In this document: positions 43,987-60,317 of the stretch, piece after piece
Numbering within the stretch: position 1 is the stretch's first letter
How the letters are laid out: each line of letters opens with the position of its first letter
Assembly: GCA_027483535.1 (NCBI GenBank)
Contig: JAIXUN010000002.1
Span: 2,108,001 to 2,172,000, forward strand
Direction of reading: 5' to 3'
Source: a bacterium
GTDB taxonomy: Bacteria > Armatimonadota > Fimbriimonadia > Fimbriimonadales > Fimbriimonadaceae
Length of the DNA stretch: 64,000 bases
The notes under the pieces: generated by a model
Databases searched by the model: none
Seen by the model: the letters and a program-made list of their open reading frames with translations, nothing else
What the model was told of the DNA's origin: nothing
Made by a program: the position numbers and the translations under genes

Positions 43987-44429
43987 TCCTTTACGATTAC
44001 GATAACAACCTGCCCATCCGCTACCTGATCGCCTCGATTTGATAATATTTTATGAACCAAACCGTCAAAAGGCGCCAAAAAGGGTTGTTGCGTCTTCATT
44101 GCTTCTAGAACGGCAACCTTCTGACCCTTCGTCACCGCTTGCCCTTCTTCCACCAAAACATCGACAATTTGTCCAGGCATCGGCGCGCGCAACTCGCCGG
44201 AATCAGTACCCGCGCTCGATCGCGTTCGGTGCAGTCGAGTGTCGAGTTGAACTTGGATCCCATCGAACGAAATAAGGACCTTGTCGCCTTCCCGAATAGC
44301 GACCCCAGTGCGAGTTGTGACTGAGCCGTCAGACCCGGTGGTTTTCACCACAAAGCGATCGCCAAGATCGGTGACCTGGACGTTGGAGAGGTCGGCTTGA
44401 ATGGCCTCGTCGTTGAGGTAGTACCGCAT
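43983..44429 (-). CDS. Biotinyl carrier domain protein (acyl-CoA carboxylase BCCP-like)
   Basis: The 148-residue protein ends with a biotinyl domain: APMPGQIVDVLVEEGQAV, then the biotinylation site LEAMKTQ (K112; usual EAMKM) and the final barrel strands. The N-terminal half is a beta domain like the one joining carboxylase and carrier in propionyl/methylcrotonyl-CoA carboxylases. With the lyase next door, a methylcrotonyl-CoA carboxylase role is plausible, but no biotin carboxylase or carboxyltransferase gene is in the window. Confidence 0.88.
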   Translation of the reverse strand: MRYYLNDEAIQADLSNVQVTDLGDRFVVKTTGSDGSVTTRTGVAIREGDKVLISFDGIQVQLDTRLHRTRSSAGTDSGELRAPMPGQIVDVLVEEGQAVTKGQKVAVLEAMKTQQPFLAPFDGLVHKILSNRGDQVADGQVVIVIVKE

Positions 44430-44453
44430 GGTTTTCTCGTTTAGGAAGACGGT

Positions 44454-45179
44454 TTAGTGAGACGTTGCATTCGCCTTCTTTGCGCGAAAAGATCGGGCTT
44501 GCTGAATGAAGGTATCGAAAAGTGCGAGCGTCGCCGGGTCTTCCGGAGTCCGCTCCGGATGCCACTGAACGCCGACGAGGAACGGATGGGATGGATCTTC
44601 AACGCCTTCCACCGTGCCGTCTGCGAAATGAGCGTTCACACGCAGCCCCTCGCCCAAACGGTTCACCGCCTGGTGGTGATAGCTCTTGCCGATCGCCTTC
44701 TCGGTGCCGACAATTGTCGCCAACTTAGAATCGGGCTCCAGGGAGTACTCCTGCAGCGTCCCACCCGTATGCTCTTCGTGATCGACCTTATCCGGCAAGT
44801 GCTGAATAAGGCTGCCACCGCGCTTGACGTTTAGGAACTGCGCCCCGTAACAGATGCCAAAAATGGGGAGTTCTGCGTCGATGGACTCGTAAAGGTTTGA
44901 TTCCGACTCGAAACGCTTCGGATCTTGCAGGCCCACTTTTGGATGATTCTCTTCACCAAACTGTTTGGCGTCGATGTCATCGCCACCCGGAATGAGCCAA
45001 CCGTCAATCAGCGGCAACAGGGGCGCTACATCGGTAAGGGGCGTGATAAGAATAGGGTTTCCGCCTGCCCGCTGAACACATTCCGCATAGTTCCAGTTCA
45101 ACTGGAGTCGCCCACGACTTCGAGCATCCTCGGGGTCGTGAGCGCAGTCAACGGTGATAGCGATCAGAGGGCGGTCCAT
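44454..45179 (-). CDS. Gamma-glutamyl-GABA hydrolase-like class I amidotransferase
   Basis: The 241-residue protein is of the peptidase C26 (PuuD-like) group: IPGGDDIDAKQFGE, nucleophile C110 in GICYGAQFLNV, then SYHHQAVNRLGEG and GVQWHPERT with the catalytic His. It would hydrolyse a gamma-glutamyl amide in the cytoplasm. It sits 5 bp behind the E2 gene and 24 bp before the biotinyl carrier, so it is co-transcribed, though its link to keto-acid or leucine breakdown is unclear. Confidence 0.9.
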   Translation of the reverse strand: MDRPLIAITVDCAHDPEDARSRGRLQLNWNYAECVQRAGGNPILITPLTDVAPLLPLIDGWLIPGGDDIDAKQFGEENHPKVGLQDPKRFESESNLYESIDAELPIFGICYGAQFLNVKRGGSLIQHLPDKVDHEEHTGGTLQEYSLEPDSKLATIVGTEKAIGKSYHHQAVNRLGEGLRVNAHFADGTVEGVEDPSHPFLVGVQWHPERTPEDPATLALFDTFIQQARSFRAKKANATSH

Positions 45180-45184
45180 AGAAC

Positions 45185-46366
45185 TTAACCTACGCAGACG
45201 GATGTGATGGATTCGACGTGCTTCTTCACCGTGTTGAGGAACTCCGCCGCACCGACCCCGTTCGCAAGTCGGTGATCAAAGGTCATGGTGACGTTCACCG
45301 AACGTTGAAGCTTCAGTTCCGAAGTATCCGAGGCGAGACCGTTGTAAGACTCGCCAAGGAAAATGGTTGCCATGCCTGGGGCGACCACTACCGGAACCGC
45401 ATCTCGAAGCCCGAACGCCTGCATGTTCGTGAGCGAAACCGTCACCGACTCGTTGGCTTGATCTTGGCCGCCTCGCGCCAGGTCGATCTTGGCCCGCATG
45501 TTCGCGGCAAAGTCTTGCCAAGAAAGCGCATCCGATTCCTCCACCACGGCGAGAACGAGTTGGTCGCCCGGTAGCGAGACCGCGATTCCGAGGTTGGCGT
45601 GATCGTAGGTGCGAACTTTGTCGTCTCCAACCATTGCGCTTCGGAACGCCGGGAACTCGCTGAGAGCCTTTGCTACGCAGTAAGCAAACATCGTGAACGC
45701 GCTCGGCTGGAAGTCGGCTCCAGAAGCTTTGATTCGGGCTCGTTCCCTTTCGATCGGTTCCCAGTTCGCGACAACCGTCATCGTGCCCGGTACGACCAAC
45801 GCGTTACTTCGCACCATGCGGCTGTTGAGAACGCGCTGCTTGGAACCGAGCGCCACTTCCGAGTAGCCCTTCGTTGGAACGCCGCTTCCGGCTCCCGCTA
45901 GGTAAGCATCGATATCCGCGGGCATGATCTTGGAACCCGCTGGGACGATCGAAGCGAGAACATCGTCGGTGATTCCCTTCTCTTTGGCGTAGGCGCGAGT
46001 TCGCGGAGGAATTCCTTGAAGTCCGGCTCGGCCGGAAGATGCAGGCTCGCCACCTGCGGCTTCGGCGTCGGCATGACCCGTGTTTTCGGCACCATGACCG
46101 TGCGGCGTGACCACTTCCACATCGTCGCCCACTGCCATCAGGGCAACTTCGGCCCCAATGGGGAGGACGGTGTCGACCTCGGCACTCCAAGAAACGAGCG
46201 TGCCTTCGTAGGGCGACTCAACATCCATCACCGCCTTATCCGTCTCCATTTGGTAGATCGGCTCGTCACGCTTGACGAATTCCCCGGGCTGCTTTAATAC
46301 AGCGACAAGTCGCGCCTCTTGGAGGCCCTCGCCGATTTGCGGAATGAAAAGCGAAACATTAGGCAT
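45185..46366 (-). CDS. 2-oxoacid dehydrogenase E2 (lipoyl acyltransferase)
   Basis: The 393-residue E2 has one N-terminal lipoyl domain (ETDKAVMDVES, K44), a linker, a peripheral-subunit-binding domain (GIPPRTRAYAKEKGI) and the catalytic domain ending in FDHRLANGVGAAEFL. In the active-site motif DHRxxDG the Asp is Asn here (N369); His365 is kept. It would accept acyl groups from an E1; the E1 alpha/beta pair at 20733-22723 is the only one in the window. First gene of its operon. No E3 is present. Confidence 0.92.
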   Translation of the reverse strand: MPNVSLFIPQIGEGLQEARLVAVLKQPGEFVKRDEPIYQMETDKAVMDVESPYEGTLVSWSAEVDTVLPIGAEVALMAVGDDVEVVTPHGHGAENTGHADAEAAGGEPASSGRAGLQGIPPRTRAYAKEKGITDDVLASIVPAGSKIMPADIDAYLAGAGSGVPTKGYSEVALGSKQRVLNSRMVRSNALVVPGTMTVVANWEPIERERARIKASGADFQPSAFTMFAYCVAKALSEFPAFRSAMVGDDKVRTYDHANLGIAVSLPGDQLVLAVVEESDALSWQDFAANMRAKIDLARGGQDQANESVTVSLTNMQAFGLRDAVPVVVAPGMATIFLGESYNGLASDTSELKLQRSVNVTMTFDHRLANGVGAAEFLNTVKKHVESITSVCVG

Positions 46367-46712
46367 GGTTTAAAGTCGGCGCTCCTTCGCGCCACCTCAT
46401 CCAGACGTTTTTACGCCTGAGTTTGGATAGAAGAAGTTTGGCATATGCCCCTTGCAGTTCGTAAGGGGACCGATTTGTTGGTTCCCAGGTTGCCCGCTAA
46501 TACTAACAAAGTCGCGTTAGGTATAATTTGAAGTCGCGCCGGGGCAACGCTTCCCTCTGCTTCGGGGTACTCGCTGATCTATTGAAGAAATGGATCGGCA
46601 AAGCCGCTTCGCAACTCATCCAGAACGGATGCCGAGCGACTCGGGAAAGGTCAAATCCGCCGCTCTGCAATCCGTTGCAAGCTAGGAACTGAACCTGAAT
46701 AGGACTTAGAAA
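46367..46712 (+). other. Divergent intergenic region and rplK leader
   Basis: No protein gene is supported in these 346 bases. A -10-like GGTATAAT at 46521-46527 could drive rplK and would give a leader of about 180 nt, which is GC-rich and foldable; AGGA stands 9 bp before the rplK ATG. The promoter of the minus-strand E2 operon must also lie here. An L1-type or other regulatory element in the leader is possible but I could not recognise one. Confidence 0.4.
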
Positions 46713-47138
46713 ATGGCAAAAAAGGTCACAGCCAACATTAAGCTTAACATCCCCGCCGGCAAGGGCACCCCTGCTCCTCCCGTTGGTCCTGCGCTTGGTC
46801 AAGCCGGCATCAACATGATGGAGTTTCTGAAGAAGTTTAACGAGCAAACCGCTCCGCAAATGGGCTTCGTCATGCCGGTCGAAATCACGGTTTTCGAAGA
46901 TCGCTCTTACGCGTTCGTCATCAAGCAACCGCTGGTAACCGATCTCATCAAGCGAGCCGCGGGCATCACCACGGGCGCTGCAAACCCCAAGACCGATAAG
47001 GCGGGCGTCATCACTCAAGAAAAGCTTCGCGAAGTCGCGAAGGCAAAGATGGCCGACCTCAACACCGACGACGAAGAGATGGCGATGCGAATCGTTGCCG
47101 GATCGGCTCGATCGATGGGCGTTCGCGTCGAAGGTTAA
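46713..47138 (+). CDS. rplK: 50S ribosomal protein L11
   Basis: The 141-residue protein binds 23S rRNA in the GTPase centre. It has the N-terminal domain (VTANIKLNIPAGKGTPAPPVGPALGQ...) and the RNA-binding C-terminal domain (TDLIKRAAGITTGAANPKTDKAG, with the usual tail RSMGVRVEG). Unusually it is not followed by rplA; a terminator lies at 47225 and the next gene is an exported protein. NusG and SecE genes are not upstream either. Confidence 0.97.
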   Translation: MAKKVTANIKLNIPAGKGTPAPPVGPALGQAGINMMEFLKKFNEQTAPQMGFVMPVEITVFEDRSYAFVIKQPLVTDLIKRAAGITTGAANPKTDKAGVITQEKLREVAKAKMADLNTDDEEMAMRIVAGSARSMGVRVEG

Positions 47139-47224
47139 TCCCCTTCGGCGAAAATTAGCCGAACCGAATCGGGCTTTCCAGCGTCCCTCTTAACAAGGGT
47201 TCGTAGAATCCCGACAGGCAATGA

Positions 47225-47263
47225 AGCCAAGGTAGGAACCGACAGGTCTTACTTTGGCTTTTT
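47225..47263 (+). terminator. Intrinsic terminator of rplK
   Basis: A 12-bp stem (AGCCAAGGTAGG at 47225-47236 with CTTACTTTGGCT at 47248-47259, including G-T pairs) is followed by TTTTT. It ends the single-gene rplK transcript. A smaller TTCGGC/GCCGAA hairpin without T-run lies at 47144-47163. Confidence 0.8.
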
Positions 47264-47385
47264 CATTGATAAAACCGTCAAAGTTCTTAATCAATCCGCA
47301 ATTCCCGGTATCGCGCCGACACCCGAATCGTCCGATAAAAACAGCAGCACAGGTCAATCTTAAAAACCGACCTTTTGGAGTCATT

Positions 47386-48060
47386 TTGAAAATCGGCACC
47401 GCCACCACAACCATGAAAGAGATCGCTCTTGTAGCGATGCTCCTGATGGTCGGTGTCACGGGAGCGCAGTCGCAATCGCCAGGTGCTCAGGCAACGGGCG
47501 CCTCGCAAGGAGCTTCTCAGGCGACCCTTCAAGAGTCAAAACTGGCCGAATCACAAGAGGCTCTTGCTTTTGGCCAATCCATCGCCGATGCGATGCGCGA
47601 GGCGACCAACGCCGACTTCGCATTCATCGCCGCCGGACAACTTCGCCCCAACGCACAAAGAACGAAGCTCGAAACCGGGTTGATGTATCCGAACGAAGAG
47701 CTCACCGTTCTGAAACTGAAGGGCAAGCAGATTCGCGATGCGTTCGAGCGAAGCTTCAGCTTCTACCCGCAAGCGAACGTCGGATTCCTTTACTTCAGTG
47801 GCTGTCAGGTAGGCATCAATGAGGGCGAGCTTCCCGGATCGCGAATTCGGTCTGTCGTTCCCGACGGAGGCTTGTTCGATAACGAAGCAACGTACACTGT
47901 TGCCATGCCGACCTCGCTAGCAAAAGGAGCCTTGGGATATTTCAAAGTTTGGGACGGTTCAACGGTGCCCACTCCGCGAAGTGAGCCCAAGACCTTGCTG
48001 CAAATCGCAACCGGCAAATCGGTGGTCACCACGGCGGCAAGATGGTTCTCCAAAGTCTAA
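47386..48060 (+). CDS. Exported 5'-nucleotidase C-terminal-domain-like protein
   Basis: The 224-residue protein has a signal peptide (IALVAMLLMVGVTGAQS) and a body resembling the C-terminal substrate-binding domain of UshA-type 5'-nucleotidases: NADFAFIAAGQLR, ELTVLKLKGKQIRDAFERS, NVGFLYFSGCQVGIN and PGSRIRSV. The catalytic metallophosphatase domain is absent, so it may be a binding module. TTG at 47386 with GGAG 5 bp before it fits best; ATG 47413 is the alternative. It overlaps the M28 peptidase gene by 19 bp. Confidence 0.75.
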   Translation: MKIGTATTTMKEIALVAMLLMVGVTGAQSQSPGAQATGASQGASQATLQESKLAESQEALAFGQSIADAMREATNADFAFIAAGQLRPNAQRTKLETGLMYPNEELTVLKLKGKQIRDAFERSFSFYPQANVGFLYFSGCQVGINEGELPGSRIRSVVPDGGLFDNEATYTVAMPTSLAKGALGYFKVWDGSTVPTPRSEPKTLLQIATGKSVVTTAARWFSKV

Positions 48061-48968
48061 TTCTCGCAACGCTTCTCACTGGCGGCATTCAGGGCACGCC
48101 TCCGCAGGAAAGCCCCATTCCGTCCGAATCCTTCCGTAAAGAGGTCGCCTTCGATTGGCTGAAAAAGCAATGTGACCTAGGATTTCGGTATCCGGGATCG
48201 GAGGGACACCTGAAGTGTCGCGACCTGATTCTGGAAGAGACCAAGAAGCACTGCGAAAACGCTCGTCTCCAGCCGTTCTCCCACAAATGGACGTCGGATA
48301 AGAAGACGTACTCCATGTGGAACGTCATCGGGGAGCAAAACTGGAAAGACGCGAAGGTGCGCATCGCTCTCTTCGCTCACTGGGACACGCGACCAACCGC
48401 CGACATGGAGCGGACCGCCGCCAACCGGAAAAAGCCGATCCTGGGTGCCAACGATGGGGCGTCGGGCGTCGCCGTTCTTCTGGAGCTCATGCGGGTCACG
48501 AAGAACGCTCCAAAAGACCTCGGCATTCTTTACGTTTTCGTGGACGGCGAAGATCTGGGCCCGGAGCTGGACGAGATGTTCCTTGGAGCGAGACACTTCG
48601 CCAAGAACATGCCGACCCCTCGGCCCGATTACGGCATCTTGCTCGACATGATCGGAGACAAAGACCTCAAGGTTCCGGTCGAGCCGAACTCTTATCGGTA
48701 CGCCTCTAAGGTTGTGAACGCGGTCTACGGCCACGCACGGACGGTTGGACTAGCGTCAACTTTCCCCTACACCTTCGGGCCCGAGATCGAAGACGATCAC
48801 ATTCCGCTCAACGAAGCTGGGCTCCCGACTATCGATCTCATCGACTTTGACTACGAACCTTGGCACACCCTCGGGGACACCCCGGACAAGTGCTCGCCGG
48901 ATTCGCTGGGCAAAGTCGGGCGACTCCTGGAAACGTGGCTGCTCAAGCCCAACCCCCAGAAGCCGTAA
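48042..48968 (+). CDS. M28-family zinc peptidase, glutaminyl-cyclase-like
   Basis: The 308-residue exported protein (signal MVLQSLILATLLTGGIQG) has the M28 fold of bacterial and animal glutaminyl cyclases: FAHWDTRP, ANDGASGVAVLLEL with the zinc Asp, VDGEDLG with the zinc/catalytic Glu, LLDMIGDKD and EDDHIPLNEAGLPTIDLIDFD, then WHTLGDTPDKC. These details (DDHIPF-like and DFDYPxWHT-like) favour glutaminyl-peptide cyclotransferase over an aminopeptidase. It overlaps the preceding gene by 19 bp and is probably co-translated. Confidence 0.85.
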   Translation: MVLQSLILATLLTGGIQGTPPQESPIPSESFRKEVAFDWLKKQCDLGFRYPGSEGHLKCRDLILEETKKHCENARLQPFSHKWTSDKKTYSMWNVIGEQNWKDAKVRIALFAHWDTRPTADMERTAANRKKPILGANDGASGVAVLLELMRVTKNAPKDLGILYVFVDGEDLGPELDEMFLGARHFAKNMPTPRPDYGILLDMIGDKDLKVPVEPNSYRYASKVVNAVYGHARTVGLASTFPYTFGPEIEDDHIPLNEAGLPTIDLIDFDYEPWHTLGDTPDKCSPDSLGKVGRLLETWLLKPNPQKP

Positions 48969-49003
48969 CCAGGGAGCACTAACAAGGGAGCCCTGACCAG
49001 AAT

Positions 49004-49015
49004 CCCTAATTAGGG
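49004..49015. repeat. 12-bp perfect palindrome
   Basis: CCCTAATTAGGG is a perfect palindrome between the M28 peptidase gene and the proteasome-like gene, 48 bp before the latter's start. It could be an operator; nothing else supports this. Confidence 0.4.
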
Positions 49016-49062
49016 TCGACAAAAGCGTAATCCGCATCCTTCCACCGGCGTAGGATCAAAAG

Positions 49063-49722
49063 ATGCTTACGCCTTACGACTGGCAAGAAGGAATGGGGAA
49101 CCGATCCGCGTTCGTGGAAGGACGCCTTAGCCAAGGATCACCCGTTCTCGCCGTCTCTTTGGAGGCCGGGATTTTGCTTTTCACCTACAAGCGACAATCC
49201 GGCAAGCTCTTCGAGATTTACGATCGGCTTGGGTTCGGGGCGCTCGGGCAACAATCCGACATTGAGGCGATTCGAGTCGCGGCAGTTGAATTTGCCCATC
49301 AGGAAGGCTTCTCGCGTAGCGAAGCCGATGTCACCATCCAACGCGTGGTCACCGGGGTCTCGACACCCTTGAAGCAGGCATTTGGAGACTTCACTCGCTC
49401 ACCCATTCTCGCCGCGTCCGTCTTCGCCGAACTCGGGGCGACCGCCGCAGATGACCGCTTTTACACCATCGACTACGATGGGGACTATCACCAACTTCGC
49501 GACTGCGCCGTGGTTGCGGTCGGGTCGTCTTCTAAACCCGATCTTCGCGAGTCCATTCCGGTCGATTCTTCGGTAGAAACCGCGATCGAAAAACTCGCCG
49601 AAATTTGGCAAACCGTCGCCTCCGAATCGGGCGAGAGAGATGTCCCGATGGAAGGACTTCACCGAGAGGTTTTGTTCTTACAGAGGCACTCGGTAAGAGA
49701 GAATCTCTTTACATATCTTTAA
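49063..49722 (+). CDS. Proteasome alpha-subunit-like protein
   Basis: The 219-residue protein follows the fold of actinobacterial PrcA: an N-terminal YDW...GMGNRSAFVEGRL helix lead, GSPVLAVSLEAGILLFTYKR, ELYDRVGF-like LFEIYDRLGFGALGQQSD, AVEFAHQEGFSRSEADVT, and RFYTIDYDGDYHQLRDCAVVAVG. As in alpha subunits there is no N-terminal Thr nucleophile. No beta subunit, Mpa ATPase, Pup, Dop or PafA gene is next to it, which is unlike the known operon. It could be a stand-alone proteasome-fold protein or part of a split locus. Confidence 0.7.
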   Translation: MLTPYDWQEGMGNRSAFVEGRLSQGSPVLAVSLEAGILLFTYKRQSGKLFEIYDRLGFGALGQQSDIEAIRVAAVEFAHQEGFSRSEADVTIQRVVTGVSTPLKQAFGDFTRSPILAASVFAELGATAADDRFYTIDYDGDYHQLRDCAVVAVGSSSKPDLRESIPVDSSVETAIEKLAEIWQTVASESGERDVPMEGLHREVLFLQRHSVRENLFTYL

Positions 49723-49745
49723 CATTTCTCCTTAACAATAGGCAT

Positions 49746-49770
49746 CGTTTCGGGGAGACTCCCCGAAACG
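49746..49770 (+). repeat. 11-bp perfect inverted repeat before the phytase gene
   Basis: CGTTTCGGGGA (49746-49756) pairs perfectly with 49760-49770 around GAC. It lies 24 bp behind the proteasome-like stop and 9 bp before the phytase ATG, where a ribosome site would be expected, so it may terminate the first gene or block translation of the second. No T-run follows. Confidence 0.5.
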
Positions 49771-49779
49771 GGCCCTGAC

Positions 49780-50820
49780 ATGACTGCCGGACTGCTTGCT
49801 CTCACTTTCTTTGCGACGCCATCCCTTCAGAAGGCTCAGCCCGTTTCGGTGAAGCCGGCTTTCGCAACCGCCCCGGTTGGGACGGATGCCGACGATCCGG
49901 CGATTGTTTACGTCCCGGAAAACCCCAAGTTCACGCTGATCTTAGGCACCGACAAATCGGAAGCCCCGGCGGGTGGAATCGTCGGATTCAACCTGAAAGG
50001 CAAGCAAGTTTTTCGTTTGAGCAACGTCGACCGACCGAACAACATCGACGTGTGGTTCGGTCAGATCGGGGGTCAAAAGCGGCACATCGCCGTCTTCACC
50101 GAGCGAATGAAGCGGCGATTACGCATCCTTGAGATTCTTCCCGGAGACAAACCAAGCTTTCGCGAGCTAACCGGTCGGACCGCTGTTTTTGCGGGAGAGG
50201 AAGGCGAAGATGCGGCCCCGATGGGCGTCACCCTCGGCATGATGTCGGGACGCTTATTCACTTGGGTCACCCCAAAAGCAGGTCCGAAAGAGAATCACAT
50301 CGCTCAATACGAGCTCCATTGGAACGGCAAGACCCGCAAGATCGACCTCTCTCTGACGCGCCGCTTCGGATCCTTCTCCGGAGTGAAAGAGACCGAGTCC
50401 ATCGCCTTCGATCCGCAATGGAATCAGGTGATCTACAGCGACGAGACGGTTTGCACCTGGATTTACAACGTCGATGCTCGCGCCGACGTGTCCCGCCCCG
50501 TCCTTCGGTTTAACGATTCGGGCACCAACGGAGATCACGAGGGGATTGCGATCTGGCCGACCGATGCTTGGGGTGGCGGATACTTGGTCCTTACCGACCA
50601 ACTGAAAGGCAATAGCGTCTACCGAGTCTTCGACAAACGGTCCCGAAAACTGGTCGGAGCCTTTACGGGTGGAGCGGACGAGACCGACGGAATCGATCTT
50701 TGCGCCAAGACCCTGCCCGGATTCCCGAACGGCATCTTCGTCGCGATGAACTCGAAAGACAAAAACTTCCTGGTTTACGATCTCGGCAAGATCGCCCGCG
50801 CCCTCAAGCTGAAACTCTAG
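49780..50820 (+). CDS. Beta-propeller phytase
   Basis: The 346-residue exported enzyme (signal within residues 1-20) releases phosphate from phytate with calcium. It has the family's order of propeller motifs: GTDADDPAIVYVP, LGTDKSEAPAGGIVGFNLKGKQ, RPNNIDVWFG, ETESIAFDPQWNQVIYSDET, GDHEGIAIWP and a closing ADETDGIDLC followed by PGFPNGIFVAMNSKD. These are the acidic calcium sites of Bacillus-type 3-phytase. No ribosome site is evident before the ATG, only the hairpin at 49746. Confidence 0.88.
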   Translation: MTAGLLALTFFATPSLQKAQPVSVKPAFATAPVGTDADDPAIVYVPENPKFTLILGTDKSEAPAGGIVGFNLKGKQVFRLSNVDRPNNIDVWFGQIGGQKRHIAVFTERMKRRLRILEILPGDKPSFRELTGRTAVFAGEEGEDAAPMGVTLGMMSGRLFTWVTPKAGPKENHIAQYELHWNGKTRKIDLSLTRRFGSFSGVKETESIAFDPQWNQVIYSDETVCTWIYNVDARADVSRPVLRFNDSGTNGDHEGIAIWPTDAWGGGYLVLTDQLKGNSVYRVFDKRSRKLVGAFTGGADETDGIDLCAKTLPGFPNGIFVAMNSKDKNFLVYDLGKIARALKLKL

Positions 50821-50825
50821 AGCGA

Positions 50826-52751
50826 TTAGGTTCCTGGGATGGTGGAGATCACCGTCTCGGACAAAGCGGGCGCTTTGCTGCGCAACTTCCCCCGTAGGTG
50901 ACCGATCAAAAGCGCGATGTCGGTCGGGCGGACGCCTGGTACACGGGAAGCCTGTCCGACCGTATTTGGTCGAAGGCGCGTGAGCTTCTCGCGCGTTTCA
51001 AAGCTCAGCCCGTTCACGGAATGATAGTCCCACCCATCGGGAATCTTCAGGTCGTCGAGCCGCTGCTGGTTGTCGGCGAGTCTCTGTTGTTTGACGAGAT
51101 ATCCCGCATACCGACCCCGAAGCTCCACCTGCTCCAGAACCTTGGGTTCATCGTCTAGCTGAATCTCCAGTCCGATGGCGGCCGCGATCTCGAGGCACTT
51201 CTGGAGATCGATTTCGGGACGCTTCATCAGTTCGAAGACGCTCTGCTTCCCTTTCGGCGCGGCGAGCCCCATCCCTTCAAACACCGTTTCGTGAGCGGGG
51301 GAGACAAAGGCGGATTCCAGTTGTTGGACGCCCCGTTCGATCTTTTCCCACTTTTCTTCAAACCTCTTTCGGCGCGCTTCGGTCGCGATTCCCAGTTCAA
51401 TCGCCAGCGGAGTAAGCCGTTCGTCCGCGTTGTCGTGGCGGAGCAAGAGTCGGTGCTCGGACCGCGCGGTGAGCATTCGGTAGGGATCTTCGACGCCCTT
51501 CGTAACGAGGTCGTCCACCATCACCCCGATGAAAGAACCGTTCCTTGGGAAATCCATCGGTTCCTCTTCCCGAGTCCACCGCGCCGCATTGATACCCGCG
51601 ACGATCCCCTGCCCAGCCGCCTCTTCGTAACCGCTTGTCCCGTTGAGCTGACCCGCAAGGAAGAGTCCAGGCATCAGCTTCGACATGAGGTGCGGCGTGA
51701 GTTGAAGCGGATCCGCCATGTCGTACTCCACCGCGTACCCTGGTCGGAGCATGACCACCTTTTCGAGTCCAGGAATGGTCTCCAAGAGGGCTTGCTGAAC
51801 GGCTGCCGGGAGAGATGTGCTCACGCCTTGAACGTAAACCTCCTCACCATGCCAGGTCTCTTGCTCCAAGAACACCGGGTGGCTGTCTTTGTCGGCAAAC
51901 CGAACGATCTTGTCTTCGATACTCGGGCAGTATCGCGGACCGATGCCTTCGATGCGCCCACCGTACATGGCGGATTCTTGAAGATTCGCCGCGATCACTT
52001 CGTGCGTGTTTAGGTTCGTTCGCGTTTGCCAGCACGGCAACAGCTCGCCCCGAGGGGAGGGTGCATCGTTGACAAAGCTGATCGCCCCCGCTTCCGGCTC
52101 ACTCGGCATCCATTCGGTCTTGTCCCAGTCGATGGAGCTCTTGGCGACACGCGGCGTGGTGCCCGTTTTGAACCTTCGTAGACGAATGCCAAGCTCTCGC
52201 AAACTCGCCGAAAGTCCAACCGCAGCGGGTTCGCCGTGTCGCGCCGCCACGGTTTGGTTTCGACCCTCGTGGCACAACCCATTCAAAAACGTCCCCGTCG
52301 TCAGAATGACCGAGCGGGATTCGATGCGACTGCCGTCGTTCAGAATCACGCCCATCAACCGACCCGATTCGATCCATAGCGATTCCACCATCGCTTCGAT
52401 CACGGTGAGGTTTGGCTCCGACGCAAACACTTCTTGCATCAGGATCGGATAAAGGTCTTTGCAAACGTGGGCGCGAACGGTTTGAACCGCCGGACCCTTG
52501 CCCGTGCCGACCCTTCGGATGTGCGTCATCGCAAGGTCGGTGGTGACACCCATCTGGCCGCCGAGAGCGTCGACTTCCCTGGCCATGTGCCCCTTTGCGG
52601 GCCCGCCGATGCTGCAGTTACACGGCAGGTGACCGATGCGATCTTTTCGAATGGTGACGCAGAGCGTTCGACGCCCCATGCGCGCCGAAGCAAGCGCGGC
52701 TTCTATTCCCGCGTGCCCTGCACCCACCACCAAAACTTCAAACGTCGACAA
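50826..52751 (-). CDS. mnmG: tRNA U34 carboxymethylaminomethyl synthase, MnmG subunit
   Basis: The 641-residue FAD enzyme works with MnmE to modify U34 of several tRNAs. It has the FAD site VVGAGHAGIEAALASARMG, the catalytic cysteine region HLPCNCSIGG, GTFLNG, LRRFKTGTTPR, GYEEAAGQG and the C-terminal helical tRNA-binding domain (HSVNGLSFETREKLTRLRP, then GQASRVPGVRPTDIALL). Length is normal. Neighbours are unrelated; mnmE is not in the window. Confidence 0.96.
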   Translation of the reverse strand: MSTFEVLVVGAGHAGIEAALASARMGRRTLCVTIRKDRIGHLPCNCSIGGPAKGHMAREVDALGGQMGVTTDLAMTHIRRVGTGKGPAVQTVRAHVCKDLYPILMQEVFASEPNLTVIEAMVESLWIESGRLMGVILNDGSRIESRSVILTTGTFLNGLCHEGRNQTVAARHGEPAAVGLSASLRELGIRLRRFKTGTTPRVAKSSIDWDKTEWMPSEPEAGAISFVNDAPSPRGELLPCWQTRTNLNTHEVIAANLQESAMYGGRIEGIGPRYCPSIEDKIVRFADKDSHPVFLEQETWHGEEVYVQGVSTSLPAAVQQALLETIPGLEKVVMLRPGYAVEYDMADPLQLTPHLMSKLMPGLFLAGQLNGTSGYEEAAGQGIVAGINAARWTREEEPMDFPRNGSFIGVMVDDLVTKGVEDPYRMLTARSEHRLLLRHDNADERLTPLAIELGIATEARRKRFEEKWEKIERGVQQLESAFVSPAHETVFEGMGLAAPKGKQSVFELMKRPEIDLQKCLEIAAAIGLEIQLDDEPKVLEQVELRGRYAGYLVKQQRLADNQQRLDDLKIPDGWDYHSVNGLSFETREKLTRLRPNTVGQASRVPGVRPTDIALLIGHLRGKLRSKAPALSETVISTIPGT

Positions 52752-52785
52752 CGGTTCTCCTTCCTAAAGATGCGTTCGGATAGCG

Positions 52786-53256
52786 TTAATCGTTCCAGCG
52801 ACCCGCGAGTTCGTCCGCGACGAGTTCGAGCATCGCCTCATCGGTGGCATCGAACGCGGCCACCGTATGCCCATCGATATCGATTTGCCCCAAGATGCGC
52901 TCCCCGTTGCGGATGAGCACCACGATCTCCGATCGAGTGGTGAGCGAACACGCTAGGTAGTTCGAAAGGGTTCGCACGTCCTCGATCACCTGGTTCTTGT
53001 TCTCGGCAACCGCGGTTCCGCATACACCCTTTCCAAACGGAATTCGGGTGTGGTCGGTAGGAGCCCCGACGTACTGATCGAGCACCAGTTCTTCGCCCTG
53101 CCCGTCCAGGGTCGAATCGACCCGGTAAATGCCGCTCCAATTGTAGTTGGGCAATTCGCTGAGTCTCTCCATCGCGAACTTCCGAAGAGGCGCACCTCGC
53201 AGCGGAGAGGCTTTGACGGCATCGAGGACGGCTTTCACTTGTTCGGGGTCGACCAT
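52786..53256 (-). CDS. Free methionine (R)-sulfoxide reductase, GAF-type
   Basis: The 156-residue GAF-domain enzyme reduces free methionine-R-sulfoxide. It has NWSGIYRV, then TRIPFGKGVCGTAVAENKNQVI and YLACSLTTRSEIVV. C79 and C103 have the 24-residue spacing of the catalytic pair of E. coli fRMsr (C94/C118). The third cysteine (C84 in E. coli) is a His here (H69). It is the only gene on its short transcript, 34 bp before mnmG, with which it may be co-transcribed. Confidence 0.85.
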   Translation of the reverse strand: MVDPEQVKAVLDAVKASPLRGAPLRKFAMERLSELPNYNWSGIYRVDSTLDGQGEELVLDQYVGAPTDHTRIPFGKGVCGTAVAENKNQVIEDVRTLSNYLACSLTTRSEIVVLIRNGERILGQIDIDGHTVAAFDATDEAMLELVADELAGRWND

Positions 53257-53346
53257 GAACCTTCATTTTGGCATGCTCCCTCTACCCACAACCCACCGCG
53301 CGTCGGTTCCCTTAGGCAGAAGGGTCGGTAGACTCGCGGATACGCC

Positions 53347-54996
53347 ATGGAACTGCGCATTTGGACTTACGATCTTGCTCGGGAGCAACAAGCCGATCTC
53401 GACTTTTTGCGCGAACTTTGTCGCCAGTCCCTTGCCTCCGGCTACAACGCGATCGGCCTCTACCTCGAGCACCGTTTCGCATACCCATCGGCCCCGTGGG
53501 CGACCGGCAAATACGCCCTTACGAAAGCGGACGTAAAGGCGCTTGAGCGGGAATTCCCAACCCTGCAAATCGTCCCGTTCATCAATCTGCTCGGCCACTT
53601 CGAGGGGATGCTGTACACGGAGCAAGGGCACACTCTGGCGGCGGAGCGATTCCGTGGTCTCCAAGCCGATGGTGCGAACCCCGAGTTCCAAAGCCTCTGC
53701 CGAAAGCTGATCGACGACATCTGTGACGCCTTCAGCAGCGAACTCGTCCACATCGGTGGCGATGAAACCGCCCAGCTTGGCGTGGGTCCGTACTCGAGTC
53801 GAAGGCTCGAAGAGATTCAGACCTCTGACCCGGCGGTCGACGCCAAAGCCCAGCTTTACGCCGAGCACTTCGCTCCGCTTTCCGATTACCTCGTGGCGAA
53901 GGGTCGAACCCCTGGCGTATGGGGCGACATGTTCTTTGAGCACCCCGCCGCTCTCGACGCCTTCCCCAAAGAGACGGTCATCTTCGACTGGCAGTATTTC
54001 AAAAGTAGCGAGTTCACCGCAAAGCCGTTCCTAGATGCGGGGTACCGCACCGTCTTCTGCCCCGCCATTCACACCTACAACGCCATCTGGTGCCACCTTG
54101 CGCAGAGCGAACGCAACGTCGCCGAGCAGGTCGAGGCCGCCCACCGCCTGGGGGCTTACGGAGTCTGCGTCACCACTTGGGAGTGCGGACTCTTCGGCAA
54201 CTACTCGTCCATCCTCCCCGCCATTCGAGCCGCCGGAAAAATGCTCATGAACCCTCGGCCGGAAGATCGCGGCGAACCCCTCCTCAGCGGGACCTTTGAA
54301 GAAGACGTCGCGATCTACGCCGCCAAGCCAAACGAGGCTCCCCGATTCCTGAAGGAGTATTTGGCGGAGAGCGAGGCCGACGAGGAGATCGCCCGACTTC
54401 TGGGAGTCGAACTCCAGAACTTAGGGGGAATTTACAAGTTCACCCGGCTGCGAAACCCATTGAAGTGCCGACTGTTTTTGTATGCCAATCCGTTCCTAGC
54501 CTGGATGCGTCACCGCGAGGATCTCGCCGGAGATTTACTCCCGACGACCGAATTCTTCACGCCGAACGAGACGGGTCTGCAGGCGATCCAGATTGCAGAG
54601 CGAGCCGTGATCTTTGCCAACAAGCCCCATTGGAAAGGACTGTACATGCTCACTCGAAAGTCAGCCGAGTTCGTCCGCTTCGCCGAGCGGGCTCGCCAGG
54701 CGTACGCATTGGGTCGACCCGGAGAGGCGATCACGCAACTTTCGCCTTGTCGCCAGATTTTTGAGGATCTGGAGCGCGTCGCCGTTGCCACTTCGATCAA
54801 CTCGGCGGGATCGCTTGCCGATGCCGAACGGTGCCGAACCGCGCGGCGACATGTGGAGGATGTGATCCTCCGGATCAAGTCTTACGGAGATGGCTCTTTG
54901 GGTTACCTCCCTTCGTTCGAGACCATCACTCACCCCGCGTTCTGCCCCCACGATCAGGGCAACTGGTGGCTCATCAATCGTTGGGCGCTCGAGTAG
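53347..54996 (+). CDS. GH20-type beta-N-acetylhexosaminidase-like protein
   Basis: The 549-residue protein has a GH20-like barrel with the catalytic pair in HIGGDET (D139, E140), a subsite strand QIVPFINLLGHFEGML, and WGDMFFEHP and VTTWECGLFGN further on. It would remove terminal N-acetylhexosamines. No signal peptide is present, so it probably acts in the cytoplasm on imported sugars or glycan fragments. The C-terminal 200 residues are helical and not part of the standard GH20 core. Confidence 0.85.
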   Translation: MELRIWTYDLAREQQADLDFLRELCRQSLASGYNAIGLYLEHRFAYPSAPWATGKYALTKADVKALEREFPTLQIVPFINLLGHFEGMLYTEQGHTLAAERFRGLQADGANPEFQSLCRKLIDDICDAFSSELVHIGGDETAQLGVGPYSSRRLEEIQTSDPAVDAKAQLYAEHFAPLSDYLVAKGRTPGVWGDMFFEHPAALDAFPKETVIFDWQYFKSSEFTAKPFLDAGYRTVFCPAIHTYNAIWCHLAQSERNVAEQVEAAHRLGAYGVCVTTWECGLFGNYSSILPAIRAAGKMLMNPRPEDRGEPLLSGTFEEDVAIYAAKPNEAPRFLKEYLAESEADEEIARLLGVELQNLGGIYKFTRLRNPLKCRLFLYANPFLAWMRHREDLAGDLLPTTEFFTPNETGLQAIQIAERAVIFANKPHWKGLYMLTRKSAEFVRFAERARQAYALGRPGEAITQLSPCRQIFEDLERVAVATSINSAGSLADAERCRTARRHVEDVILRIKSYGDGSLGYLPSFETITHPAFCPHDQGNWWLINRWALE

Positions 54997-57361: not shown

Positions 57362-59698
57362 TTAAACGCGCTTGAACAACTTCAGCAGTTCTTGGGTGGT
57401 CAAGGTTGCCGTGATCGGGCGCCCGTGCGGACAGTGGTACGGGTTCTCGGTGGTGGCCAGGTCCACGAGCAGCTTTTCCATCTCTGCATGAGAGAGTGGA
57501 TCGCCCGCCTTGACCGCCATTTTGCACGCCGACATGATCCAAATCGCCTCCCGAGTGGGCACCAGTTTCTTGGTGACCGTGCTATCGATGAGTTCGTCCA
57601 CCAGGTCGCGCAGAACCCGGATGGGGTCTTTTCCGCGCAGGGCCGCCGGAGCCGCTCGCACCACGAAGGCGTCCCCTCCGAATGGCTCGAGTTCGTACCC
57701 AACCTGCTCGAGTTCCCCGATCTTCTCCATGAGCAAGATCGCGGCGCGGCGATCGACCTCCAAGGTCTGAGGGACCAGCAACGGCTGCTTCTCCACAAGG
57801 GTCGAGCGTTTCAGACCGCACAAATATTCGTACAAAATGCGCTCGTGGGCGACGTGCTGATCGACCACCACGATGCCGTGCCGAGTCTCCGCCAAGATAA
57901 ATGTGTTTTGCGCCTGCCCAATGATCCGCAGTTCGTCCAGCAAATGCACGTACGGCATGGCCGAGGTGCGAGGCACCGAGAACGGATCGAGACCGCCTTT
58001 GGGGATATCGAGGAGCCGCCCATGTTCAAGTTCACGTTCATGTTCGCCTCGAACTTGTCCATAGGCACCCTCCAAAACTGCGCCCACTTCACCAAAACTC
58101 GGCGCTGAATCGGCGGACCGAAGACCCGGTGCGCCACCAAAATCGCCCGGCGGACGATCGAGCAATCCCAAGCCGCCCCCGCCCGTCCCCAAAGCATCTC
58201 GATCCACCTCTCGAACGACTCGCGCGGATGCCCCAAAATCCGAACCAGCCGAACCGACCGAACCAGCCGAACCTTCTGAACCATCGAAACCATTGGGCCC
58301 CGACGACCGACTGTCCGCACCCTCGGCAAAACCGCTCGAACCGCCCCCGAAACCAACCGACTTCTGAGCGATCCCGAACGCACTCGGCATCATGCCGTGA
58401 TCCAGCAGCGACTGCCGGATCGCATAGCGCAGACCCTCGAACGCCGTCCCCTCGTGCTCGAACTTCACCTCGCTCTTCGTCGGCGAGACGTTCACATCCA
58501 CTCGTTCCGGGTCGATCTCTAAATCCAGCGCCACCATCGCAAATCGGCGCTCGGGCGTAAGGTCTCGAAACGCCTGATCCAGGGCAATCGAAAGCGTTCG
58601 CGCCTTCACACTCCGCCCGTTCACCGTCAAATACTGATAGCTCCGGTTCGGCTTGGTGACGTGGGGAGGCGAGACGTAACCCCACACTCGCAAACCGCCA
58701 ATGGTGTGATCCACCGGAACCAACTGGCGAGCGACCTCGCGATTCCAAACCGCGCCCAGCGCGTCCAGCATCGATCCGTTGCCCGAAGTGCGCAGCGCCT
58801 CTTGCCCGTTGTGCCACACCGTGAACGCCACCCACGGGTAAGCCACCGCGTACCGCATCAGCGCGTCCAAGATTTGCCCCACCTCGGTGCCGTCGCTCTT
58901 CATGAACTTCATGCGCGCGGGGGTGTTGTAGAACAGATTCTCCACCCGAATTTCGGTTCCCTTCGGCCCGGCTCGCTTCGTTTCGCCCACGATCGTGCCG
59001 CCTTCCACCGTGATCTCATGCCGAACGCCGTCTGCGTACGCGGAGGAAATCGTCATCCGTGATACGGACGCAATGCTTGGGAGCGCCTCGCCGCGAAAAC
59101 CGAGACTCAACACCGCCTTCAAGTCGTCGTACCTGCGAATCTTGGAAGTCGCATGACGGTGAAGCGCCAAACGGGCTTCGTCGGGGGTCATACCGATGCC
59201 GTTGTCGGAAATGCGGATGAGTCCCTTCCCCGCTTGGCGAATCTCCACCTCGATGCGAGTCGCCCCCGCATCCAGCGAGTTCTCTACCAACTCCTTCACC
59301 GCCGAAGAGGGGCGTTCCACCACCTCGCCCGCCGCGATCTGGTTGATCGTGGTCTCATCGAGCAAGACCACGCGCATGGCGGGCTCATCGGGAGTGCCTG
59401 CGGACGGACGGATCTCTCCTGTTTCCTCGTCTACCCCTGTTTCTTCGTATTTGCCTGCGTCCTCGCCTTTCAAGACAAGGGGTCCATCCGCTCCTGCCTC
59501 GTTGCCTCCATGCGCACCTGTTCCAACTCCCGCAACTCCCGAAACTCCCGAAACTCCCGAAACTCCCGAAACTGCGGACGCACTCTCGGGTCCATTGGTC
59601 AAAACGTCCGCCGAAGAAGACGGCGCGACCCGATTCTTCGGCTTGAGTTCGGGGTGACTCGCCCCCGCGTCTTCCGGGGGGAGGGCACGGTAGGGCAT
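57362..59698 (-). CDS. mutL: DNA mismatch repair protein MutL with repeat-rich N-terminal extension
   Basis: The conserved protein starts at Met 59377 (MRVVLLDETTINQIAAGEV, then NSLDAGATRI and DNGIGM of the GHKL ATPase, NVSPTKSEVKF, and a C-terminal dimerisation domain with GIVVVDQHVAHERILYEY and CPHGRP). The frame stays open upstream: I give ATG 59698 (promoter-like TACAAT and AGGAG just before), adding 107 residues rich in Ser, Gly and Val; ATG 59914 is also possible. The true start is uncertain. The linker between domains has a second Ser/Gly repeat (58242-58286). Confidence 0.85.
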   Translation of the reverse strand: MPYRALPPEDAGASHPELKPKNRVAPSSSADVLTNGPESASAVSGVSGVSGVSGVAGVGTGAHGGNEAGADGPLVLKGEDAGKYEETGVDEETGEIRPSAGTPDEPAMRVVLLDETTINQIAAGEVVERPSSAVKELVENSLDAGATRIEVEIRQAGKGLIRISDNGIGMTPDEARLALHRHATSKIRRYDDLKAVLSLGFRGEALPSIASVSRMTISSAYADGVRHEITVEGGTIVGETKRAGPKGTEIRVENLFYNTPARMKFMKSDGTEVGQILDALMRYAVAYPWVAFTVWHNGQEALRTSGNGSMLDALGAVWNREVARQLVPVDHTIGGLRVWGYVSPPHVTKPNRSYQYLTVNGRSVKARTLSIALDQAFRDLTPERRFAMVALDLEIDPERVDVNVSPTKSEVKFEHEGTAFEGLRYAIRQSLLDHGMMPSAFGIAQKSVGFGGGSSGFAEGADSRSSGPNGFDGSEGSAGSVGSAGSDFGASARVVREVDRDALGTGGGGLGLLDRPPGDFGGAPGLRSADSAPSFGEVGAVLEGAYGQVRGEHERELEHGRLLDIPKGGLDPFSVPRTSAMPYVHLLDELRIIGQAQNTFILAETRHGIVVVDQHVAHERILYEYLCGLKRSTLVEKQPLLVPQTLEVDRRAAILLMEKIGELEQVGYELEPFGGDAFVVRAAPAALRGKDPIRVLRDLVDELIDSTVTKKLVPTREAIWIMSACKMAVKAGDPLSHAEMEKLLVDLATTENPYHCPHGRPITATLTTQELLKLFKRV
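58242..58286 (-). repeat. 9-bp tandem repeat in the MutL linker
   Basis: Five 9-bp units of GAACC followed by four variable bases (AGCC, GACC, AGCC, TTCT, ATCG) encode a Ser/Gly/Val series in the disordered linker of MutL. The 9-bp unit keeps the frame when units are gained or lost. Confidence 0.75.
59524..59577 (-). repeat. 9-bp tandem repeat in the MutL N-terminal extension
   Basis: Six 9-bp units: CAACTCCCG twice, AAACTCCCG three times and one variant AAACTGCGG. On the minus strand they encode SGVSGVSGVSG within the extension upstream of the conserved MutL start. Confidence 0.85.
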
Positions 59699-60317
59699 GA
59701 CTCCTATTGTATCGCTTGAGCCCCCCGTAAAAGCCCGAGTTCCAAAGAAGGGCACGGCGCCCTCCTCCCCGGCCGTCACCACCCGCGACACCTCGGTCAG
59801 CATGTCACTACTCTCTGCCAATGGGGAGATCTTCGCCAAAGGGGACAAGTTCGCCAAAGGGGAAACGGCATCCGCGCGAGTGCCCTCCAGACGAAGCGTC
59901 GGGATTTCAATCATCGAACCGGACTCACGCCAACCAAACGCCGCCAACAGATCACAACCGCGTCAAGAGGTTTCTCACCGATGCCCCTAAACAATTTATG
60001 AGACGATGACTCTCCATCATTTGATCTACCAATTTACCCATTATTATAAAAATTATCTTTAGTACCTATCACATAACAACGAAGCCCGCCAAATCTCTAG
60101 CCCCGAAAGAATCCTTCTCCAAAAGAAACCGGCCCGCACAAAAACTTGCCCCGCAAAGAAACTTGCCGGTGATTGCCCCGGGAAACGTGGAACAAAAACC
60201 TTGCGGAGAGTGAATCTCGCGTGCCGGTGACATTGCGTGAACCGGTTCGTGGGGGAGGGGGCTGATCGGCCAGGATGCAGATCAGGCGCTCGACGAGGCT
60301 AGGAAGGTCGTCTAAGT
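59699..60317. other. Intergenic region between mutL and motA
   Basis: About 619 bases. The part up to 59947 continues the mutL frame and holds the 18-bp repeats. From about 59980 to 60080 it is AT-rich (ATTATTATAAAAATTATC) and non-coding. A second stretch, 60130-60180, repeats ACTTGCC. The AT-rich part may hold promoters for mutL and motA; I found no clear sigma-28 motif and no RNA gene. Confidence 0.4.
59817..59870 (-). repeat. 18-bp tandem repeat upstream of mutL
   Basis: Three 18-bp units beginning GCCAAAGGGGA or GCCAATGGGGA run from 59817 to 59870. They are in frame with mutL and would read SPLANLSPLAKISPLA if translation began at ATG 59914; if it begins at 59698 they lie in the upstream region. 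Confidence 0.75.

Follow-up and report, generated by a model that had tools for sequence, protein, structure and literature searches.

The gene at positions 49063-49722 of the window, that is, of the whole stretch of 64,000 nucleotides analysed here (C1:2108001-2172000), encodes, with a probability that we put at about 0.93, the alpha subunit of a canonical UBact/Pup-type 20S proteasome, whose gene was relocated in Fimbriimonadaceae, probably in a single event close to the base of the family. The earlier note had described it as an orphan; it is not one, because the genome also contains prcB, UBact, Dop, PafA and the ATPase, and the alpha subunit co-occurs, and is co-lost, with them. The gene, called prcA hereafter, thus belongs to a complete system whose genes are scattered, and there is no need to invoke a new machine. 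This removes the apparent oddity of an isolated alpha gene. The features of the window that matter here are the following, with the share of the 32 family loci in which each flanking gene was found near prcA.

46713-47138, plus strand: rplK, ribosomal protein L11 (14 of 32)
47254-48060, plus strand: gene with a 5'-nucleotidase C-terminal domain (18 of 32)
48042-48968, plus strand: M28-family peptidase gene (PF04389), upstream of prcA (12 of 32)
49063-49722, plus strand: prcA-like 20S proteasome alpha subunit, ATG start, 219 aa, intact
49072-49128, plus strand: codons 4-22, N-terminal H0 helix, an alpha-subunit feature, predicted as a helix over residues 4-22 of the model
49204-49206, plus strand: codon of Lys48, invariant in 79 aligned alphas
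49780-50820, plus strand: phytase-domain gene (PF02333), downstream of prcA (5 of 32)
50826-52751, minus strand: mnmG/gidA (7 of 32)

As the earlier note had it, an alpha-like reading frame stands between an M28 peptidase and a phytase gene, both of which are confirmed by their domains, and no beta subunit, ATPase, Pup or ligase gene lies nearby; profiles for PF00227, PF03136, ARC and UBact detect no other proteasome or pupylation gene in the whole window. The genome (G000) is 99% complete in 4 contigs, and a search of all of it gives only two PF00227 genes, prcA as the sole alpha-type gene and one beta. The partners are as follows.

C3:7959-9446: dop, contiguous with UBact and prcB
C3:9443-9619: UBact, 58 aa
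C3:9622-10377: prcB, the beta subunit, directly after UBact
C1:1308347-1309825 (L015 8348-9826): pafA
C1:318205-319941 (L014 8206-9942): ARC/Mpa ATPase with OB and AAA domains

The suggestion that the proteasome genes are dispersed in this lineage is therefore strongly supported, with partners on C3 and at two further C1 sites. The proposed search for prcB, mpa, dop, pafA and pup succeeded for the first four; Pup itself (PF05639) has no match in the genome, because UBact is present instead, scoring 77.7 bits with NF033388 (cut-off 35) and 77.8 with PF20513 (cut-off 27.8). Two genes carry PF03136 (395.7 and 375.8 bits), and PafA and Dop each match their own TIGR model best, both below the equivalog cut-offs; likewise ARC scores 438.5 bits with TIGR03689 (E 3e-131) and does not reach the cut-off of 504.75. 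In PrcB, HG is followed by TTV, and D17 and K33 are in register when counted by eye; we take Thr1, Asp17 and Lys33 to be the catalytic residues. Bpa/PafE (PF10759) has no match in the genome at E up to 1, and HslV, present in other genomes of the class, was not found in this one.

The separation from prcB is a property of the family. In the three sister families f2-f4 prcA stands directly behind prcB, and the alpha gene lies within 600 bp of the beta gene in 19 of 19 genomes, versus 0 of 74 in Fimbriimonadaceae (f1), a count based on a beta list assembled by hand from the matches listed (a hit near UBact, or near alpha in f2-f4) and leaving uncounted 4 of 78 family alphas without a beta in that list (G011, G022, G057 and G075). 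The two genes are on different contigs in 58 of the 74 genomes, where assembly breaks could mimic separation; in the 16 with both on one contig the distance is 18.4 kb to 1.9 Mb. No prcB occurs in any of the 32 family loci, read to about 6 kb on each side where the contig allowed. Relatives of prcA were found in Fimbriimonadaceae and other Armatimonadota, and among the best 80 of 434 loci prcB is present in 23, accompanied by dop and UBact in 17 of these and by pafA in 10. None of the 23 contains a neighbour gene of the window, and at 37 of the 57 loci lacking prcB one or more of these neighbours (rplK, the 5'-nucleotidase-domain gene, M28, phytase and mnmG) are present. Two entries at these loci carry unexpected names: L228 (JADZEW010000018.1), filed as a Methanoregulaceae archaeon, has a Fimbriimonadaceae prcA nearly identical to that of L232, likely a binning or naming error, and L279 (JACOSB010000119.1), a Candidatus Acetothermia MAG, has a full dop-UBact-prcB-prcA-pafA operon close to Armatimonadota, by transfer or misbinning.

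Many Fimbriimonadaceae share the new prcA site near rplK, the 5'-nucleotidase-domain gene, M28 and mnmG. When the loci are labelled as operon or detached on a tree of 80 alphas, 2 changes of label are needed, compared with about 19 in shuffles, on a topology in which many inner branches are weak, the branch grouping L257 and L259 with operon loci is unstarred, and one of the two changes falls at L283, where prcB was not recognised. The detached label was given where at least 700 bp could be read before the gene, and L233 is unlabelled; the truncated L276 was left out of A2 and of this tree, and L272 out of A2. It is likely rather than established that prcA was relocated a single time, close to the root of Fimbriimonadaceae, and moved again later in some members, because a window neighbour is common to 21 of the 32 family loci and none of the five is found in the other 11. 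In the proposed course of events, prcA would have left a dop-UBact-prcB-prcA(-pafA) operon for a site near rplK. The operon of other Armatimonadota has the same genes in the order dop-UBact-prcB-prcA-pafA, and from it both prcA and pafA have left in Fimbriimonadaceae. Family f2 has another break, which separates dop-UBact from prcB-prcA in 5 of its 6 genomes (G001, G004, G006, G007 and G008). As to traces around the gene in the window, a promoter scan near prcA gave 0 where 1.4 are expected by chance, terminators are at chance level, and no tRNA that could mark a relocation lies within 44000-54000.

The move raises the possibility that a canonical alpha subunit has gained an added role, with independent transcription, an excess of alpha, and alpha-only rings or antechambers. 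It is in favour of this that prcA and prcB are no longer on one transcript in the family, and that at L081 prcA is convergent with the M28 gene, hence it is no fixed part of that neighbour's transcript either. However, many operons are split without new functions and nothing points to a beta-free role, and we regard this extension as very unlikely.

That prcA belongs with the partners named above is indicated by their joint distribution. Over the phylum an alpha is found in 166 of 291 genomes. Across the 113 genomes of the class, TIGR03691 matches in 97, PF00227 in 108, PF03136 in 109, ARC in 104 and UBact in 100; alpha, PafA/Dop, ARC and UBact are found together in 82 of the 88 genomes at least 90% complete. 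All four are absent from three near-complete genomes (G067, G068 and G112), and one or two parts are missing from three others (G035, G051 and G105). Among the latter, G035 (92% complete) counts against the canonical reading: UBact, PafA/Dop and ARC are found in it, but no match for alpha is. G067 and G068 are 1.5 Mb genomes of the same family from which the whole UBact-proteasome system is absent, and this joint absence speaks for alpha being part of that system.

The gene is under purifying selection, with dN/dS of 0.015 to 0.09 in 7 of 9 close pairs and saturation in the other 2, two of the nine pairs being from the same two genomes. Faster evolution after the move was considered and rejected, as the median ratio of alpha to beta divergence shows no clear difference: it is 1.65 after the move (8 genomes, 28 pairs) and 1.58 in operon families of the class (7 genomes, 21 pairs, with L109 dropped since its beta was not picked up). 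A wider operon set of 16 out of 18 loci (L109 and L265 dropped) gives no median, at least one pair being at zero distance. With a low dN/dS and a similar ratio, prcA does not look released or repurposed.

In the AlphaFold2 model built with 79 sequences (pLDDT 91.7), the product has a predicted full-length alpha fold with the H0 helix and without the catalytic N-terminal Thr, the protein beginning with MLTPYDW. The best 50 Foldseek matches listed come exclusively from proteasome entries of M. tuberculosis or Rhodococcus; the alignments with the M. tuberculosis alpha chains 3mka_A and 6bgo_J begin at model residues 2 and 1, respectively. With VIA-align, an M. tuberculosis PrcA chain matches at Z 26.2 (200 residues, 2.1 A), and eukaryotic and archaeal alphas score lower, at Z about 22. 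Lys48 is aligned with a lysine of Rhodococcus PrcA, and its counterpart is presumably the lysine of the activator-docking pocket, K52 in M. tuberculosis numbering. A passage of PMC12288473 places the pocket lysine in almost all alphas, where it binds the tails of activators.

The earlier note had also considered that the protein might be a repurposed alpha, perhaps a ring without protease activity; such a protein would have quit the proteasome to build a separate ring. The gene does stand apart from prcB in all 74 family genomes, and its C-terminal tail is shorter than in f3 and f4 (219 aa vs 244-251). Nevertheless it is the sole alpha found in a genome whose beta has the catalytic residue positions intact, it is absent together with all its partners from the three genomes G067, G068 and G112, its pocket lysine is invariant in the 79 sequences, its divergence relative to beta is not clearly faster than in operon families, and the H0 helix and the whole fold appear to be retained in the model. 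With the alpha features kept in this way the suggestion is not supported, and we leave it only a very slim chance.

The likeness to PrcA, which the same note had pointed out, is borne out by the profile matches, the nearest solved chains and the full-length predicted structure at Z 26, and the protein does not fall outside the proteasome superfamily, the PF00227 match of 25 bits being above the gathering cut-off of 22.4. With TIGR03691 (20S_bact_alpha) it scores 61 bits (E 1.1e-16) and does not reach the cut-off of 139.05, which is reached by none of the 291 Armatimonadota genomes searched and which we read as set on actinobacterial sequences; we therefore limit the claim to the Gram-negative branch of bacterial alpha and do not extend it to PrcA of actinobacterial type. 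The closest solved chains by sequence are those of Rhodococcus (best E 1.9e-12) and M. tuberculosis PrcA, and identity to actinobacterial PrcA is about 22-24%. When a profile is built from 18 relatives, PrcA is its best match (1e-20 to 1e-21), and a eukaryotic alpha follows at 4e-4. In the phylogeny, for which 19 alphas, 11 betas and 11 HslVs of the class were chosen, the protein groups with the other alphas, apart from the betas and HslVs (support 73 for alpha, 98 for beta and 90 for HslV). Proteasome alpha, beta, HslV and Anbu share the Ntn-hydrolase fold, and this common fold is what would favour a misreading of an HslV, Anbu or beta-type protein as alpha, but such an error has next to no probability, as the protein lacks the N-terminal catalytic Thr and has the predicted H0 helix, the NCBIfam scan gives bacterial alpha at 1.1e-16, otherwise only archaeal beta at E 0.064 and no HslV model at E up to 1, and both the profile searches and the tree place it with alpha.

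With respect to known systems, prcA resembles the PrcA of Actinobacteria (M. tuberculosis and Rhodococcus) in the full-length fold (Z 25-26 in the model), the H0 helix, the pocket lysine and the YDRLGF strand region, as well as in having a PrcB partner and pupylation-type enzymes in the genome. It differs in its shorter C-terminus, in a gene that is not beside prcB, and in an ATPase tail that is not GQYL. A Gram-negative cluster of proteasome alpha and beta subunits covering Armatimonadetes, Nitrospirae and Verrucomicrobia is described in a part of PMC5666114, to which our protein corresponds in phylum and in kind of subunit as far as that part goes; it deals with neither accessory genes nor the order of the genes. 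Dop/PafA homologues in Armatimonadetes are mentioned in an excerpt of PMC7947786. Proteasome subunits of Armatimonadetes are hence already published, and prcA is such a subunit whose gene has an unusual position in the genome. Two points may be new, the disrupted order of the genes and, across the class, ATPase tails with two aliphatic residues at their end; proteasome gene order in Fimbriimonadaceae was not the subject of any paper that our literature search listed. The gene order was called rigidly conserved in 2012, in a section of PMC3511204, and Fimbriimonadaceae provide a checkable exception to it, as well as a natural test of whether alpha and beta must come from one transcript.

Under the canonical reading, seven prcA products would make up each outer ring of an alpha7-beta7-beta7-alpha7 barrel together with PrcB from C3; substrates would receive UBact from PafA, and Dop would both prepare this tag and take it off; the ARC ATPase, once docked on the alpha ring, would pass tagged, unfolded protein through the gate for degradation. 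The ATPase tail of the genome itself (L014:8206-9942) lacks GQYL/HbYX, so that docking on the alpha ring is not assured by motif. The same is seen over the class: in 50 ARC proteins, comprising the 30 best hits (L124-L153) and 20 chosen to cover families (L184-L203), the penultimate residue is aromatic in none and a GQYL end is found in none, the ends being IV in 17, VI in 17, II in 6 and others in 10. Tails without the aromatic residue also occur in the operon families, and the tail type is thus not tied to the prcA move. In mycobacteria GQYL is required for gate opening, according to passages of PMC8142254 and PMC12288473, and the non-aromatic tails make this gate-opening rule of bacterial proteasome ATPases testable outside Actinobacteria. 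We tentatively put forward, as a doubtful though not negligible proposal, that in Fimbriimonadia a new type of ATPase tail, with two aliphatic residues (mostly I/V-I/V) at its end, would open the alpha ring by docking on the invariant lysine, and that in Fimbriimonadaceae alpha would in addition be made from an independent locus, with the alpha:beta balance set outside a shared transcript and alpha-only assemblies possible.

Elsewhere in the window, at 57362-59947 on the minus strand, there is a reading frame that is MutL-like by eye and has an N-terminal extension and a low-complexity stretch, SGVSGVSG; its true start may be further in.
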